This document shows, piece by piece, positions 3,178-54,258 of a stretch of DNA of 64,000 nucleotides; within the stretch, counting starts at the first letter, position 1, and each line of letters opens with the position of its first letter. Origin of the DNA: an uncultured Alphaproteobacteria bacterium. GTDB lineage: Bacteria; Pseudomonadota; Alphaproteobacteria; VGEJ01. Position numbers and translations under genes: made by a program. Under the pieces are notes generated by a model. It was not told where the DNA came from and searched no databases. It saw nothing but the letters and a program-made list of their open reading frames with translations. The stretch is from NCBI GenBank assembly GCA_913041535.1, contig CAJWJK010000001.1:124001-188000 (forward strand). The letters run 5' to 3'.

Positions 3178-3915
3178 TCACACGTGTTGTCCGCCATTAA
3201 CATGAATTTCAGCGCCGTTTACGTATGCCGATTCGTCGGTACAGAGGTAGTAAATCGTGCGTGCAACTTCCTCAGGCGTACCAAGACGGTTAAGAGGGAT
3301 TTGGTTAACCAGAGATTCATACTCAGGGCCAATCATTGAGGTGCGAATTTCGCCAGGTGCAATTGCGTTGACTCGGACGCCAAGGGGGCCAAAATCAGCA
3401 GCCATTTCTCGGGTAAGTGCTGCCAGTGCTGCTTTGGATGTTGCGTACGCAGTTCCAGCAAATGGATGAACGCGACCACCTGCAATTGAAGTAACGTTAA
3501 CGACGGAGCCAGAGCCCTGGGAAAGTTCGTTAATTAGACCTCTAGCTAACACAACTGGCGCATAAAAATTAACCCGAAATACGGATTCCCACGTTGTAAT
3601 GTCCGTTTCAAGGCTGCCAAGGCGTTGGCCGCTGCCACTCCTCGGAGAGATTGCGGCATTATTTACTAATGCATTAAGCGGTCCACCTGCCAATCGCTCA
3701 CGCAAAATTTCAATGCCCGTTCTTGTGCTATTTGAATCAGCAAGGTCAATAACAGCATGATCATCGGGGCCACCCTCCCAGGGGCAGTCCTCTGGGAAAG
3801 GCTGACGTGAACATGTAATCACGCGCCAACCGGCAGCGCTAAATCTTTTAACGGTGGCGTGGCCGATGCCGCGGCTAGCACCGGTGAGGATCAGTGTCTT
3901 TCGTTCTTCAGTCAT
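3178..3915 (-). CDS. SDR family NAD(P)-dependent oxidoreductase
   Basis: A classical short-chain dehydrogenase of 245 aa. The nucleotide motif TGASRGIG is at residues 11-18, NNAA is in the middle, and the catalytic Ser in VTSIAG precedes YATSK. The C-terminal NGAEIHVNGG stretch is typical of FabG-like members. It would reduce or oxidise a hydroxy/keto substrate, which cannot be named. It converges on the lactonase with 35 bp between them and may belong to the same catabolic neighbourhood. Upstream, 144 bp separate it from the CDF exporter, which is read in the same direction. Confidence 0.9.
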   Translation of the reverse strand: MTEERKTLILTGASRGIGHATVKRFSAAGWRVITCSRQPFPEDCPWEGGPDDHAVIDLADSNSTRTGIEILRERLAGGPLNALVNNAAISPRSGSGQRLGSLETDITTWESVFRVNFYAPVVLARGLINELSQGSGSVVNVTSIAGGRVHPFAGTAYATSKAALAALTREMAADFGPLGVRVNAIAPGEIRTSMIGPEYESLVNQIPLNRLGTPEEVARTIYYLCTDESAYVNGAEIHVNGGQHV

Positions 3916-42255: not shown

Positions 42256-42550
42256 CCCGTTTTCCAGTGGTGTTTTGGCGACTAATCGATATTTTGATTG
42301 GTATTCAGCCGCTGTGCGAATACTTCAGAAAAATTAACTCGATGCAACATCGGTCTGGCTAATTGTGAGAGTAGTCATAAGACCATATCTAAAAGAAGCC
42401 ATAACACCCGTCGCTATATCTCTGAGTTATTTCAAGCACAGAAACAAATCCAGCCTTGTTGATTAATAAACTTTCGAGTTATTTCGACTAGTAGCCGATA
42501 ATAATCTAGGGTGTTGTGCTTATTGTGAGTTGGCATCTATAGTTGGGCGT

Positions 42551-42640
42551 TACACTCGGGGGAGCCAAGTCGGCTGAGAGGTTCCGTTATAGGACGACCC
42601 CTCGAACCTGATCCGGATGGAACCGGCGGAGGGAGAGTGC
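42551..42640 (+). ncRNA. TPP (THI-box) riboswitch
   Basis: The sequence carries the conserved TPP aptamer elements in order: CTCGGGGGAGCC, GGCTGAGAG, ACCCCTCGAACCTGATCCGG, and ACCGGCGGAGGGAG. The P1 stem is CACTC (42553-42557) with GAGTG (42635-42639). It lies directly ahead of the ThiZXY-type transporter genes, the expected target of thiamine repression. The 3' P1 strand contains the GTG at 42637 and abuts GGAGGG, so ligand binding could block translation start. Confidence 0.95.
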
Positions 42641-42642
42641 TT

Positions 42643-43431
42643 TTGCAGAGCACCACTAAAGTCAGTGAGAGCGTAGAGAGCTCAGAGAGCTTAACGGGTC
42701 GTCATGCAATCGTGCTAAAAAATCTTGGTTTCCGACGTAATGGATTGCTTCTCTTTGATGGCCTCAGTGAACAATTTTCGGCTGGTGAAACGACATGCAT
42801 TTTAGGTGTTAGTGGTGTTGGGAAGTCCTCTTTATTGAGAGTAATTGCGGGACTGCTGCCTGATCCAGAATTTGGGTCGGCGTGCGATGAAGACGGGAGG
42901 TCACTTCGTGGTCGGATTGCATACATGGCTCAGGACGACCTTCTTCTACCATGGGCTAATGTTTTTCGAAACGTGACTTTGGGCTGTCGTCTCCGTGGTG
43001 ACGATATTGATGATGATAACGCGCGTGAGCTAATTCAGTTGGTTGGGCTAGCCGAACATGTAGAGGCACTTCCTCACACATTATCGGGTGGGATGCGGCA
43101 ACGTGTTGCTTTGGCGAGAACTCTCATGGAGAAGCGCCCCATCGCTCTGCTGGACGAGCCGTTTTCCGCCTTAGACGCCCTAACACGTTATCAGCTTCAA
43201 AGCCTTGTCGCTGAACTATTTCGGGGTAGAACGGTGGTCATAGTCACTCATGATCCGGTGGAAGCACTGCGGTTAGGGCATTCAATAAGGGTCATGTATG
43301 GTCGACCCGCCCTGTTGAGCGAACCAATGCGGTTAGGCGGCCAGCCTCCCCGCGACCCTACTGCACCCAAGGTGGCTAGTTTACAGCGGGAATTACTGAA
43401 TCGGCTTGGAATCTCTCCGGCAGAGGTGTGA
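42643..43431 (+). CDS. thiZ: ABC transporter ATP-binding protein, thiamine-precursor (ThiZ-like)
   Basis: An ATPase of about 262 aa. Walker A is LGVSGVGKSS, the Q-loop is AYMAQDDLLLPW, the signature is LSGGMRQRVALARTL, and Walker B is PIALLDEPFSALD, with TVVIVTHDPVEAL following. The start may be GTG 42637 (inside the riboswitch P1 stem) or TTG 42643; with GGAGGGAG at about 42627-42634, TTG 42643 has the more regular spacing. Placement behind a TPP riboswitch and before ThiX and ThiY homologues points to uptake of a thiamine pyrimidine precursor. Confidence 0.9.
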   Translation: MQSTTKVSESVESSESLTGRHAIVLKNLGFRRNGLLLFDGLSEQFSAGETTCILGVSGVGKSSLLRVIAGLLPDPEFGSACDEDGRSLRGRIAYMAQDDLLLPWANVFRNVTLGCRLRGDDIDDDNARELIQLVGLAEHVEALPHTLSGGMRQRVALARTLMEKRPIALLDEPFSALDALTRYQLQSLVAELFRGRTVVIVTHDPVEALRLGHSIRVMYGRPALLSEPMRLGGQPPRDPTAPKVASLQRELLNRLGISPAEV

Positions 43432-48880: not shown

Positions 48881-50704
48881 ATGTGCGGTATCATCGGCAC
48901 GCTTGGGCATGCAGATGTTGCTCAGGACTTACTTGAAGGACTGAAGCGCCTAGAATATCGCGGGTATGATTCGGCGGGTATCGCGACGCTCTACAATGGC
49001 TCTATAGAACGTAGGCGTGCTGAAGGTAAACTAATCAACCTTGGTAAGGTGATTGAAAAGGAACCTCTTCAGGGTGATATAGGTATCGGGCACACTCGGT
49101 GGGCGACCCATGGTGTGCCCAGTGAGCGTAATGCGCATCCCCATGCCACTGATCGCGTTGCCGTGGTGCACAATGGCATAATCGAAAATTTTCGCGAACT
49201 GCGACGGGAGCTTGAAAGTTCTGGCCGCATTTTCGGGACCGATACCGATACTGAGGTTATTGTGCAACTTATTCACCATAACCTCAGCCAGGGTCTTAAA
49301 CCGGTAGATGCTACTAGTGCTGCACTTGAAAGACTTGAAGGTGCGTTTGCACTTGCGATTCTTTTTGCCGAAGAACAGGAATTAATGATAGGAGCCCGCC
49401 GCGGCAGTCCGCTCTGCATCGGTTGGGGTCAGAAGGAGATGAGCCTTGGTTCTGATGCGCTTGCGCTCGCTGGTTTAAGCAATCGTATTTCGTATCTTGA
49501 AGATGGTGATTGGGCAGTTATCACGCGTGACGGTGCAACGGTAAGAAATACACATGGCGAATTGGTTGAGCGCGCAATACGTACTACCGCATTGTCAGAA
49601 AAGCAGATGAGTAAGGGTAATTATCCCCATTTCATGGCAAAAGAGATTCATGAGCAGCCCACTGTTATTGGCCAAACTTTAAACACGTTTTTTAATCCTC
49701 TAGACCGGTCAATTAGTTTACCCGAACTGCCTTTCAACCTGTTAGAAATTGAGCGCATCACCCTGATTGCCTGTGGCACGTCATTCTATGCGGCTATGAT
49801 TGCCAAATATTGGTTTGAGCAAATTGCTAGAATATCGGTGGACATCGATATTGCATCAGAATTTCGGTATCGCGGAACGCCGATGGCCAAAGGAGGGTTA
49901 GCCTTATTTATATCTCAGTCTGGTGAAACTGCGGACACCCTTGCGGCACTGCGTTTCTGTCGAAAGCAAGGACAGCATATAGCAGGCATAGTTAATGTGT
50001 CCGAGAGCACCATTGATAGAGAGGCGGATATTGTATTTAACACACATGCCGGACCTGAGATCGGTGTTGCGTCGACTAAGGCCTTCACGTGTCAGTTGGT
50101 AACACTGGCTTGTATTGTAATTGCTACTGCACGTGTACGGGGTGCAATTTCAAGAGAGCAAGAACAAGAGCTTTCATCCGCGATAACAGAGGTTCCCGCA
50201 CGAGCGGCAGAGATCTTGAATCACGACGATTCTTTGAGGCAGCTCTCAAACGTACTGGCTGGGGCCCGCGATGTTCTATTCATTGGGCGCGGAGCTAGTT
50301 ATCCTATTGCCCTTGAGGGCGCTCTAAAGTTAAAGGAAATTTCGTACATTCATGCGGAGGGTTTCGCCGCAGGTGAGCTTAAACACGGACCCATAGCATT
50401 GATCGACCAATCAGTGCCGGTCATTGTTATTGCTCCGTCTGATGCCCTTTTTGAAAAAACTGCATCTAATGTGTCCGAGGTGGTGGCGCGTGGTGCTCAA
50501 GTAATTTTTCTATCAGACTCGAAGGGAATAGCTGCGCTAGGCGATCAGGCAAAAGAATCGATAGAACTTCCCACAGTGCACTCCTTTGTTGCCCCAATAC
50601 TTTATGCTTTGCCAGTACAGATTCTGGCTTACCACACCGCCGTATTGAAGGGTACGGACATAGATCAGCCGCGCAACCTAGCTAAATCCGTGACCGTGGA
50701 GTAG
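48881..50704 (+). CDS. glmS: Glutamine-fructose-6-phosphate aminotransferase (isomerizing)
   Basis: A 607-aa enzyme that converts fructose-6-phosphate plus glutamine to glucosamine-6-phosphate. The N-terminal Ntn glutaminase starts MCGIIGTLG (Cys2 nucleophile). Two SIS domains follow (CGTSFYAA, SQSGETADT, GRGASYPIALEGALKLKEISY). The C-terminus ends in the universal PRNLAKSVTVE. GGAGG precedes the ATG. Its 3' end is the integration boundary of the element described below; the coding sequence itself is intact. Confidence 0.97.
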   Translation: MCGIIGTLGHADVAQDLLEGLKRLEYRGYDSAGIATLYNGSIERRRAEGKLINLGKVIEKEPLQGDIGIGHTRWATHGVPSERNAHPHATDRVAVVHNGIIENFRELRRELESSGRIFGTDTDTEVIVQLIHHNLSQGLKPVDATSAALERLEGAFALAILFAEEQELMIGARRGSPLCIGWGQKEMSLGSDALALAGLSNRISYLEDGDWAVITRDGATVRNTHGELVERAIRTTALSEKQMSKGNYPHFMAKEIHEQPTVIGQTLNTFFNPLDRSISLPELPFNLLEIERITLIACGTSFYAAMIAKYWFEQIARISVDIDIASEFRYRGTPMAKGGLALFISQSGETADTLAALRFCRKQGQHIAGIVNVSESTIDREADIVFNTHAGPEIGVASTKAFTCQLVTLACIVIATARVRGAISREQEQELSSAITEVPARAAEILNHDDSLRQLSNVLAGARDVLFIGRGASYPIALEGALKLKEISYIHAEGFAAGELKHGPIALIDQSVPVIVIAPSDALFEKTASNVSEVVARGAQVIFLSDSKGIAALGDQAKESIELPTVHSFVAPILYALPVQILAYHTAVLKGTDIDQPRNLAKSVTVE

Positions 50705-50705
50705 T
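50688..50705 (+). repeat. Left copy of glmS-tail direct repeat
   Basis: CCGTGACCGTGGAGTAGT encodes the last residues of GlmS (VTVE-stop) and the next base. It is the functional end of glmS. The right copy at 51988 differs at two positions. Confidence 0.85.
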
Positions 50706-50707
50706 TC

Positions 50708-50721
50708 TGTAAGGGGGTACT
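50708..50721 (+). repeat. Left 14-bp terminal inverted repeat
   Basis: TGTAAGGGGGTACT, beginning three bases after the glmS stop. It is perfectly inverted at 51966-51979. The AAGGGGG inside it also serves as the ribosome site of the nuclease gene (ATG eight bases downstream), so part of the match could reflect translation signals. Confidence 0.7.
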
Positions 50722-50725
50722 TGAA

Positions 50726-51643
50726 ATGGTTGAAACTAAATTCTTAGATGATTTCATCCTTCAGTCCTCCACTGGGAACCTAAAAACAAAACACCTTTAT
50801 CCCCAAGAAGTACAAGATTTACAGATAAAAGTATCTTTCGGTATGGGCACCCCTACCCATGTTCCTTGGATCTCCTTTTTGGGTCCTGGAATGTCTACAA
50901 GTAATGGTTACTACCCCGTTTATCTATTTTATAAAAAAGAAAATATTCTCGTTCTTGCGTATGGGATAAGTGAAACATTTATTCCAGAAGATACATGGAC
51001 ATATGAAATTCATAATTCATCCCAAAAGATTTCGGATTTTATAGATAACCCTTTTAGGTATGGAGACTCGTATGTTTATAAATATTACGTGCCAAAGATT
51101 GAAAATGACTCGGTACGTTATTTTGTTGATGAACAGGAAGTCGATGCAAAAATAATCTCCAATGATTTAGAATCTCTATTAAACAATTATAAGACTTTCT
51201 TGGATATCGCTGTAAAGGATGAGAGTTCCGACCTGAGCAAAGGTCTTTTTTATATGGAGCAGCAACTCGAAGATTTTATAATTGAAAATTGGGATAACAC
51301 GGAGTTTGGAAAAAAATATGACCTTATCTTCGAAGATGGTGAACTCAAAAGTCAACAGTACAGAACCAGTATAGGAAATATAGATATCCTGGCAGTAGAT
51401 AAGGTCTCAAAAGATTACGCAGTGATTGAGTTAAAAAGGAACCAGACCAGTGACGATACAATAGGTCAGGTTACCAGATACATGGGATGGGTCTTAGAAC
51501 ATCTTCAGAACGAAAATGTAAGGGGCGTAATTGTTGCTGGAAAGTTTGATAACAAATTATTTTACGCACAAAAAGTGATCAAAAACGTAGAAGTTTTCCT
51601 TTACGAAGTGGGTTTTCGACTTAACGAATATAAAAAGAACTAG
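50726..51643 (+). CDS. McrB N-terminal-like domain fused to NucS-like PD-(D/E)XK nuclease (putative type IV restriction protein)
   Basis: A 305-aa two-domain protein. Residues 1-165 resemble the MrcB_N (DUF3578) domain: LQIKVSFGMGTPTHVPWISFLGPGMSTSNGYYPVYLFYK then ILVLAYGISET. In McrBC-type systems this domain reads modified cytosine. Residues 175-300 resemble the NucS/DUF91 nuclease: TSIGNIDILAVD (Asp220), VIELKR (Glu235, Lys237), and GQVTRYMGW. No AAA+ GTPase motor is present, unlike McrB. It likely cleaves modified foreign DNA (inference). The gene is AT-rich, sits directly behind glmS within inverted repeats, and shares CTAG stop codons with the convergent ORF. Confidence 0.85.
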   Translation: MVETKFLDDFILQSSTGNLKTKHLYPQEVQDLQIKVSFGMGTPTHVPWISFLGPGMSTSNGYYPVYLFYKKENILVLAYGISETFIPEDTWTYEIHNSSQKISDFIDNPFRYGDSYVYKYYVPKIENDSVRYFVDEQEVDAKIISNDLESLLNNYKTFLDIAVKDESSDLSKGLFYMEQQLEDFIIENWDNTEFGKKYDLIFEDGELKSQQYRTSIGNIDILAVDKVSKDYAVIELKRNQTSDDTIGQVTRYMGWVLEHLQNENVRGVIVAGKFDNKLFYAQKVIKNVEVFLYEVGFRLNEYKKN

Positions 51644-52041
51644 ACCTGATTAATGAGAGTCATATCCAAAAACCAGAGATCAAAATTAGATATCGTCATT
51701 TGACACCCTTTGGATATCCGTTGGTCACGAAGACGTCTCTTTTTGATAATTGAGTGTATATGGGAAGAACCAAATGTCTTCCCTCTCGCTGACTTGTATC
51801 CATTATCGTTCAACCATCTTGCGATCTTTTCTAACGTCCAACCTTTGTCTCTAAGGTCTGAGACCGTATCGTAAAGAAATTGTTGATGATTGGAGTAGGG
51901 TGCAACCCACAGATTTGAGGTGCGCAGATCTACGTCGAAGGTAAAATAGGTGATGATGTCGCTTGAGTACCCCCTTACACCGGTATTCTGTGACCGTGGA
52001 ATAGTGGGGTTCGGTGGTAAGTCATCCACGGAATCCAACAC
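51640..52041 (-). CDS. Small recombinase-HTH-like protein (possibly 5'-truncated)
   Basis: An ORF of up to 133 aa. The recognisable portion, YSNHQQFLYDTVSDLRDKGWTLEKIARWLNDNGYKSARGK then HIHSIIKKRR, resembles the DNA-binding Recombinase domain of large serine recombinases, without the catalytic Ser domain. No ATG/GTG/TTG lies downstream of the inverted repeat. The only starts are upstream (GTG 52041 and nearby), across the glmS-tail repeat, so the N-terminal 30 residues may be artefactual and the gene may be truncated. It is paralogous to the ORF at 52004-52303. Confidence 0.55.
   Translation of the reverse strand: MLDSVDDLPPNPTIPRSQNTGVRGYSSDIITYFTFDVDLRTSNLWVAPYSNHQQFLYDTVSDLRDKGWTLEKIARWLNDNGYKSARGKTFGSSHIHSIIKKRRLRDQRISKGCQMTISNFDLWFLDMTLINQV
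51966..51979 (-). repeat. Right 14-bp terminal inverted repeat
   Basis: The minus strand reads TGTAAGGGGGTACT, identical to the left copy at 50708. It lies within the 5' part of the minus-strand small ORF and eight bases before the right glmS-tail repeat. Confidence 0.7.
51988..52005 (+). repeat. Right copy of glmS-tail direct repeat
   Basis: CTGTGACCGTGGAATAGT. In frame it still reads S-V-T-V-E-stop, with a synonymous GAG-to-GAA change, so it derives from a glmS 3' end from another copy or source. Sequence before it is unrelated to glmS. Confidence 0.85.
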
Positions 52042-52303
52042 AGAAGTTTACCTAACATTCCATTTGAAAATCCGTGCCTCACATCTGAATGCTCAGACTT
52101 ACTCTCAATATCAGCAATTTCTATACCAAGAGATCACCGATTTTAGAAAGATGGGTTGGACGTTCACAATAATTTCAGAACGACTCAAAAGTGAAAATAT
52201 AGAACGAATTGGTATACCCGAAGACATAAGAATTAATGTTACTAAGGGAATGATAAAGTATCTTGAGAGGCATAGAAGGTCTCTAGAGAAATTGACCAAC
52301 TAG
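52004..52303 (+). CDS. Small recombinase-HTH-like protein, paralogue of the minus-strand ORF
   Basis: The track ORF spans 51950-52303, but its first part overlaps the inverted and direct repeats. A plausible start is GTG at 52004, giving about 99 aa. EVYLTFHLKIRASHLN then YSQYQQFLYQEITDFRKMGWTFTIISERLKSENIERIG aligns with the 51640-52041 product (FTFDVDLRTSNLW, YSNHQQFLYDTVSDLRDKGWTLEKIARWLNDNG). The C-terminal half is more diverged, with IKYLERHRRS in the place of IIKKRRLRD. The ribosome site is weak, so it may be a decaying copy. Function unknown. Confidence 0.5.
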   Translation: MGFGGKSSTESNTEVYLTFHLKIRASHLNAQTYSQYQQFLYQEITDFRKMGWTFTIISERLKSENIERIGIPEDIRINVTKGMIKYLERHRRSLEKLTN

Positions 52304-53412: not shown

Positions 53413-54258
53413 ATGGCGTTAAATATGGAATATGTAAGTGCAGAAATAGCATTTATCGCTGAGAATGGTGACTCGGCGGCTTCTTATATCTATCCTAAGT
53501 CCAGTGGCAGGGAGATCAAGCGGCCTATTAATGAAAAAAAGGTTGTTCGGGTTCATGACACGCGCCGATTAGAAGTACCGTCAACCCTGGAAGTCAATGG
53601 GTTTCAACTTCTTAATTTTCCAACACGGATAACTGATTTTTACGACGAAAGGGATATTGCAGAGAATTACTATAAGGAAGCAATTGATCTTCTTAAAGAG
53701 GTTACAGGAGCTGCTGAGGTATTTGTTTTTGATCATACTTATCGCAGTGAAGTGCGGGCTAATGCGGGTCAGCCGGGTGTTCGGTTGCCTGCCGAATTTG
53801 CACATGTGGATTATACGCCGAGCTCAGGCCCGCGCCGTTCCCTAGAGATTTTGCGCGAGATGAATCAACGCGAATATATACAGCATCGGATGGCTCTAGT
53901 TAATGTTTGGCGTCCCATAATTGGTCCCGTGTATGATTGTCCGCTTGCCATATGTGATCCAAGAACATCTTCGGAAGAGGATTTTGTTCAAACAGACATT
54001 TATCATTTCAATGAAGATGATCTGGAAACACCGGCGATTAGCGGACAGATATATTCGTTACGACACAATGCCTCTCAACGCTGGTATTACTGTTCTGAAA
54101 TGAGAACCGAGGAAGTGTTTTTGCTCCGAAACTGGGACTCGGGTGTATCTGATCATAGCTGTTATGCTGCACATACAAGCTTTAAAAATCCGATAGTCCC
54201 GCCCCAAAGCAAGCCCAGAGAGAGCATCGAATTGCGCACTCTCCTCATTTTTCCATAG
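53413..54258 (+). CDS. CmcJ/NvfI family Fe(II)/2-oxoglutarate-type oxidoreductase
   Basis: A 281-aa protein similar to CmcJ (cephamycin) and NvfI/AsaB fungal oxygenases. The iron ligands are His131 and Asp133 in AHVDYT and a distal His254 in CYAAHTSFKNP. The conserved LVNVWRPI and PLAICDPR stretches are typical. GGAGGT precedes the ATG. The product probably hydroxylates a small molecule; substrate unknown. It is convergent with the NTF2-like gene. It is one of four iron-dependent oxygenase genes in this 8-kb stretch. Confidence 0.87.
   Translation: MALNMEYVSAEIAFIAENGDSAASYIYPKSSGREIKRPINEKKVVRVHDTRRLEVPSTLEVNGFQLLNFPTRITDFYDERDIAENYYKEAIDLLKEVTGAAEVFVFDHTYRSEVRANAGQPGVRLPAEFAHVDYTPSSGPRRSLEILREMNQREYIQHRMALVNVWRPIIGPVYDCPLAICDPRTSSEEDFVQTDIYHFNEDDLETPAISGQIYSLRHNASQRWYYCSEMRTEEVFLLRNWDSGVSDHSCYAAHTSFKNPIVPPQSKPRESIELRTLLIFP

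Follow-up and report, generated by a model that had tools for sequence, protein, structure and literature searches.

Two related orphan recombinase-type proteins as likely end genes of successive elements in the glmS 3′ end of an uncultured alphaproteobacterium

The gene glmS is a known landing site of Tn7. Tn7 and Tn7-like elements use the glmS 3′ end, as do the elements described here, but with a DDE transposase, by insertion downstream of the gene and without duplication of the glmS tail. The closest functional analogues appear to be SCCmec and ECC (target rlmH, Ccr large serine recombinases), which are serine-recombinase cassettes in the 3′ end of a conserved gene whose coding end is kept, with tandem units, recombinase-less units and variable cargo (described in part in PMC6222049). 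The present elements seem to work like SCC without being members, having neither an rlmH insertion nor ccr genes; their target is glmS, relatives pair one large serine recombinase (LSR) with one small serine recombinase, and at one end stands an HTH protein that is conserved and is here called the orphan.

Recombination directionality factors such as phiC31 gp3 and PLE/ICP1 PexA are likewise small accessory proteins of LSR elements, a role that the orphan may share, but we know of no sequence relation between them and the orphan. In the case of PexA, the control of direction can come in trans from a different element (PMC6002521). Phage LSRs (LI/A118, Bxb1, phiC31) use a palindromic attP of ~50–56 bp with zinc-domain arms and a 2-bp core (PMC3783163). 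The LSR of the related elements has the same Resolvase, Recombinase and Zn-ribbon domains, whereas P0001, the intact orphan of this study, is only an HTH related to such enzymes, and the att core here carries glmS coding sequence. The literature that we searched, which left most subscription journals and preprints outside, gave no description of glmS-targeting LSR elements.

The stretch analysed (the window) is 64,000 nucleotides long and contains glmS with two small divergent ORFs further right (Table 1). The final glmS codons are present twice at the downstream end, at 50687–50704 and at 51987–52004 (TCTGTGACCGTGGAATAG), so that the right-hand glmS tail reported in the first-pass annotation is real. 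Between these copies lies a unit of 1.3 kb (50,690–51,994) that has no LSR and carries P0001 and a McrB_N/NucS nuclease, the nuclease being proximal to glmS and P0001 at the far end. It is flanked by a perfect 14-bp inverted pair, and its orientation is that of the related element L173, with the nuclease in place of the recombinase genes. The attR core of this unit doubles as the left end of an older element.

Table 1. Features of the glmS locus in the window
Feature	Position	Strand	Evidence or remarks
glmS, target gene with attachment site in 3′ end	48881–50704	+	607 aa; NCBIfam glmS equivalog, 791 bits
attL core GTGAC-CGTGGAGTAG	50690–50704	+	Copy of tail; putative crossover AC 50693–50694, placed from host/element mosaics and arm symmetry
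P′ arm TGTAAGGGGGTACT	50708–50721	+	Positions 15–28 from crossover; 14/14 match to other arm
Cargo nuclease, McrB_N / NucS_C (PDDEXK-type)	50726–51643	+	305 aa; Pfam and PADLOC candidate PDC-S02
P0001, intact orphan, strand-HTH-strand, recombinase-type HTH	51640–51993	−	PF07508, family profile, model, dN/dS
P arm AGTACCCCCTTACA, inverted copy of P′ arm	51966–51979	−	Repeat search and arm comparison
attR core with mini glmS tail TCTGTGACCGTGGAATAG	51987–52004	+	Tail copy and arm comparison; putative crossover AC 51993–51994
P0002 N-terminal half, truncated orphan domain	52004–52168	+	BLASTP with P0001; profile match
P0002 C-terminal part, HNH_2 endonuclease end	52169–52303	+	51% over 39 aa against G386 HNH_2 enzyme, E = 6e-13

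The two listed ORFs (P0001, minus strand 51640–52041; P0002, plus strand 51950–52303) diverge from the repeat junction at ~51,980–52,004, as had been noted before. Their proposed kinship holds: BLASTP aligns them at 33% identity over 75 aa (E = 2e-13), and a profile of relatives whose rows include P0001 and exclude P0002 retrieves both genome-wide (E = 7e-45 and 3e-13, respectively). The serine-recombinase-type DNA-binding domain ascribed to them is common to both, although P0001 alone passes the cut-off of Pfam Recombinase PF07508 (29.5 bits, cut-off 21.1; residues 59–103, profile positions 9–53 of 102). P0001 also matches phage integrase family phrog_95, and family searches with P0002 alone gave no match. 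Pfam finds no Resolvase catalytic domain (PF00239) in either protein, in agreement with the earlier description, nor the zinc ribbon with coiled coil that the LSR of relatives has.

P0002 is related to P0001 only across its N-terminal half. From about residue 74 its last ~39 residues are the C-terminus of an HNH_2 endonuclease, a fusion that the first-pass annotation missed. The matching enzyme (HNH_2/DUF3427, Pfam) is encoded directly after the orphan in SAR11-like relatives (family f9), which points to an in-frame deletion; P0002 is most likely a chimeric scar in which that deletion joined half an orphan domain to the HNH tail. Since the window shows no attR for the older element to which P0002 would belong, this element appears to be a truncated relic. 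The first-pass annotation had left open whether the pair were adaptor proteins or remnants of successive insertions, and the answer differs between the two: P0001 is intact, under selection and linked to att, and P0002 is the deletion-damaged remnant of a separate insertion.

When glmS ends are aligned, the bases up to GTN track the host and those after AC, including the stop codon, track the element type. In genus g285, for example, one genome (G408) reads ...GGTTAC/CGTGGAATGATTTCG and another (G409) ...GGTTAC/GGTTGAGTAGATTTG, the slash marking the change. From this pattern we infer that the crossover is the AC of the glmS codons GTN-ACN. The far crossover was predicted by mirroring the left arm about AC and taking the top-scoring inverted arm, and the predicted centre fell exactly on a second glmS-like tail in six genomes (G000, G126, G009, G398, G399, G411). 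Arm positions 15–28 match at 14/14 in the window, G126, L173 and L184, at 13/14 in G009, 12/14 in G398 and 11/14 in G411; in the nested arrays of G408 and G393, where the two ends come from different elements, they match at 4/14.

Rejoining the ends gives a palindromic attP with 14-bp arms at positions 15–28 on either side of AC, so that the elements have attL and attR with a common 2-bp core together with a palindromic attP. Judged by its sequence, a site of this size and kind is the signature of a large serine recombinase. The solved LI integrase complex places the zinc-domain motif at positions 16–24 of a 25-bp attP half-site (PMC3783163). The empty glmS site of the window species would have read GTGAC/CGTGGAATAG. 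A tyrosine recombinase with a 6–8-bp overlap is disfavoured, as bases on both sides of AC vary freely. The tail copies are mosaics that change from host to element at AC, and on this ground we rejected transposition that leaves a long target duplication, casposon-like or other. A tail-like site at +2500 in L134 was also rejected as an end of that element, its arms matching at 1/14. Separately, minimal mobile units lie beside glmS in G009 (L099, 298–800): elements of ~240 bp in which the att arms are complete (GTTTTGGGGGTTTAC) and no gene was recognised.

Searches with P0001, and then with a 12-sequence profile (A1), against 385 alphaproteobacterial genomes gave strong matches (E below 1e-8) in 12. 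The orphan is at the glmS end in 11 of them; in the twelfth (G302; L044, G302:C21) it follows a peroxiredoxin gene and a mini glmS tail of its own, in an element remnant that is either an off-target insertion or a transported att. The recurrence beside glmS in marine alphaproteobacteria that had been suggested as a check is borne out. The refuting outcome named with it, a family unconnected with integration sites, does not hold, since 12/12 strong-match genomes have the orphan adjoining a glmS tail, full or mini. Nor is the pair confined to this site; it belongs to a widespread family of serine-recombinase elements. Weak matches (E above 1e-6) are mostly frames of 219–717 aa, the size of ordinary serine recombinases. 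Family f9 has the orphan in 19 of 32 genomes, and G600, from a phylum sample outside the class sample, has one directly after glmS.

A DNA scan of 84,980 species for AGGGGGTA at 7 nt downstream of a glmS end gave 61 contigs, as well as one viral contig. By a hand estimate chance would yield ~3, made up of 1.9 for the pattern across both strands of 257 Gb and 1.3 for glmS genes by themselves. True glmS 3′ ends account for nearly all the contigs, which come from alpha-, beta- and gammaproteobacteria, Marinimicrobia and Bacteroidia; mis-binning may lie behind a few record titles among them ('archaeon', a 'Streptomycetaceae' MAG). Of the 62 att-pattern loci, 32 show the orphan, and many of the others are cut by contig or locus ends. 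Against viral contigs, plasmids and phages the P0001 sequence alone found no useful relatives, and the DNA att pattern performed far better. The cargo examined, a chosen sample and not a census, is mostly restriction or nuclease genes (N6_N4 and D12 methylases, PLD and NgoFVII nucleases, GIY-YIG, NucS, HNH_2).

One orphan (G402:C2) adjoins tRNA-Ser genes with no glmS tail seen; within that locus (L124, G402:C2:101000-107500) the minus-strand orphan, near locus position 3684, lies by a duplicated tRNA-Ser(tga) and an arm-like AAAAAGGGGGGTAGG, which may mean that the family has a second type of target site. L152 (4750–6000), where no glmS is visible, contains att units in tandem that bear mini glmS tails, together with the relative closest to P0001 (73% identity). 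In L043 (856–1371, G110:C32) a replication-initiator-like protein directly follows a glmS-linked orphan.

LSR genes were found within the islands of G318, L125, L134, L173 and L184, with fragments in others. The G318 island ends in an LSR of 544 aa (Resolvase, Recombinase, Zn ribbon), and in G126 only an LSR C-terminus remains, at the attR end. The smallest complete element is L173 (3.1 kb, Comamonadaceae), whose recognisable genes are, in reading order, an orphan of 122 aa, a small serine recombinase of 222 aa and an LSR of 568 aa; L184 (Rhodocyclaceae) shares this order and adds cargo. Orphan and LSR stand at opposite ends of the related elements and read in the same direction. Both orientations relative to glmS occur, and in L131, L173, L174 and f9 type D elements the orphan is at the attR end and points inward, as in the window unit.

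The window unit encodes no LSR of its own, and PF00239 is wholly absent from its genome, so that the enzyme must come from elsewhere or have been lost. PF00239 is also missing from eight searched f9 genomes whose att elements come with or without orphans (G009, G142, G240, G321, G390, G398, G402, G409) and from G392. Several PF00239-free genomes keep intact orphans and tandem units, though some of these assemblies are incomplete. A split serine recombinase with a resident catalytic subunit was rejected because PF00239 is absent in G000, G050, G110, G142, G240, G257, G321 and others. The short G009 elements have att arms without an orphan, which argues that the orphan is not needed for residence. 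Away from glmS, L187 (4489–6892, G600:C13) holds a small serine recombinase and LSR pair, the LSR frame of which ends ...THSATVE, resembling the GlmS C-terminus as if its last codons came from a glmS-like att core.

With 24 family members AlphaFold2 gave a confident strand-HTH-strand model of P0001 (mean pLDDT 86), of which the first nine residues, beside the arm-encoded part, are of low confidence. Against solved structures the model has no match below E = 0.001; the best viral matches are mostly recombinases and resolvases, at E ~5e-3 and weaker over ~60–90 residues. In profile comparisons the orphan HTH matches the C-terminal HTH of the small serine recombinase (E = 6e-5) and has a weak match (E = 0.022) to the LSR recombinase domain. 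The orphans evolve under purifying selection: among 75 pairs, almost all of them f9 sequences, the median dN/dS is 0.24. Between P0001 and its L152 relative the core has a dN/dS of 0.11 and the part from arm to anchor one of 0.26. Among the orphans, the stretch between the arm and the first strand has values of 0.09–0.35, below 1.

Start codons are less regular. Among 52 orphans ATG, GTG or TTG occurs in the expected region in 25, only later in 16 and not at all in 11. The absence of a good start, noted earlier for both ORFs, stands for P0001, which has none of the three codons between arm and domain, but not quite for P0002, where a GTG (52004–52006) overlaps the mini-tail stop (TAGTG). In the rejoined attP no convincing upstream start was found for the G126 and G318 orphans or for P0001. 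Orphans adjacent to glmS are in the −1 frame relative to it in 35 of 39 cases (counting neither one duplicate genome nor copies that follow mini tails; the sequences lack phylogenetic independence). This is the frame of ATGA or TAGTG stop-start overlaps, which are present in several f9 orphans, G318 and P0002, and it suggests that orphan translation is coupled to glmS. P0001, at the far end and directed toward glmS, is not accounted for by such coupling.

We consider it likely, short of firm, that the two ORFs are end genes of successive elements in the glmS 3′ end, placed by LSR integration at AC, with the orphan as an accessory factor. The LSR would exchange strands at the AC dinucleotide, restoring the GlmS C-terminus with codons supplied by the element, and LSR-less units such as that of the window would have moved in trans. 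The orphan would bind the att arms through its recombinase-type HTH and serve in directionality or site recognition; a role of this kind would explain why satellites keep it under selection. P0001 is best read as an accessory protein of recombination, linked to att, in a glmS 'cassette' family that seems not to have been described before, and P0002 as the half-deleted orphan of an older element with an HNH nuclease tail.

More tentatively, the orphan may be an obligate third component, a catalysis-free att-binding protein that sets the direction or site choice of an LSR coming from another element. If so, LSR-less cassettes of att arms, orphan and restriction genes would hitch-hike through glmS across phyla, and translation from the glmS stop codon may couple production of the orphan to integration. 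Whatever the orphan does, a family separate from Tn7, apparently of serine-recombinase type, uses the last codons of glmS in proteobacteria, Marinimicrobia and some Bacteroidia, and carries restriction and nuclease genes in some of the smallest oceanic genomes. This suggests a route by which defence cassettes may reach small genomes that lack every serine recombinase. For a gene end that is nearly universal, the family offers LSR, attP and attB in natural matched sets, and its conserved catalysis-free partner protein makes a concrete test of LSR directionality control possible.

As the main rival for the orphan, the same anatomy might instead carry a transcriptional regulator of the element edge that binds the arm at its own 5′ end and takes no direct part in recombination, its candidate targets being the orphan itself, the recombinase genes or read-through from glmS. 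An HTH protein encoded immediately by a palindromic arm, lacking catalytic and zinc domains and conserved in units without an LSR, would suit such a role; its HTH is nevertheless like those of serine recombinases and not of typical repressors, and the smallest complete element retains only the orphan and two recombinases, so we regard a pure regulator as rather improbable. That both ORFs are dead, functionless remnants of a former recombinase gene is very unlikely. It fits P0002, which is clearly truncated and fused, and is disfavoured for P0001; the latter has no canonical start and sits in a genome without an LSR, but its core dN/dS against L152 and the recurrence of intact orphans across several classes of Proteobacteria speak against decay.

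An invertible switch, in which the segment between the arms flips to put either the nuclease or P0001 after glmS, is suggested by the perfect inverted repeats around two convergent genes, yet the arms are att half-sites centred on the crossover and identical layouts in L131, L173, L174 and f9 type D elements need no inversion; we dropped this highly improbable scheme. Tn7-like transposition with a TnsD-type protein choosing the site shares the target gene, and the window unit begins TGT and finishes ACA, but it is in essence refuted, and hardly credible, given a duplicated glmS tail with a host/element mosaic switching at AC, window element proteins that match no Tns family (tnsABC(D) included) and an LSR inside related elements.

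Two further features of the window lie outside the unit. A TPP riboswitch is at 42548–42651 (+, 66 bits), and a CmcJ/NvfI-family oxidoreductase is encoded just right of the element remnants at 53413–54258 (+, 255.8 bits).
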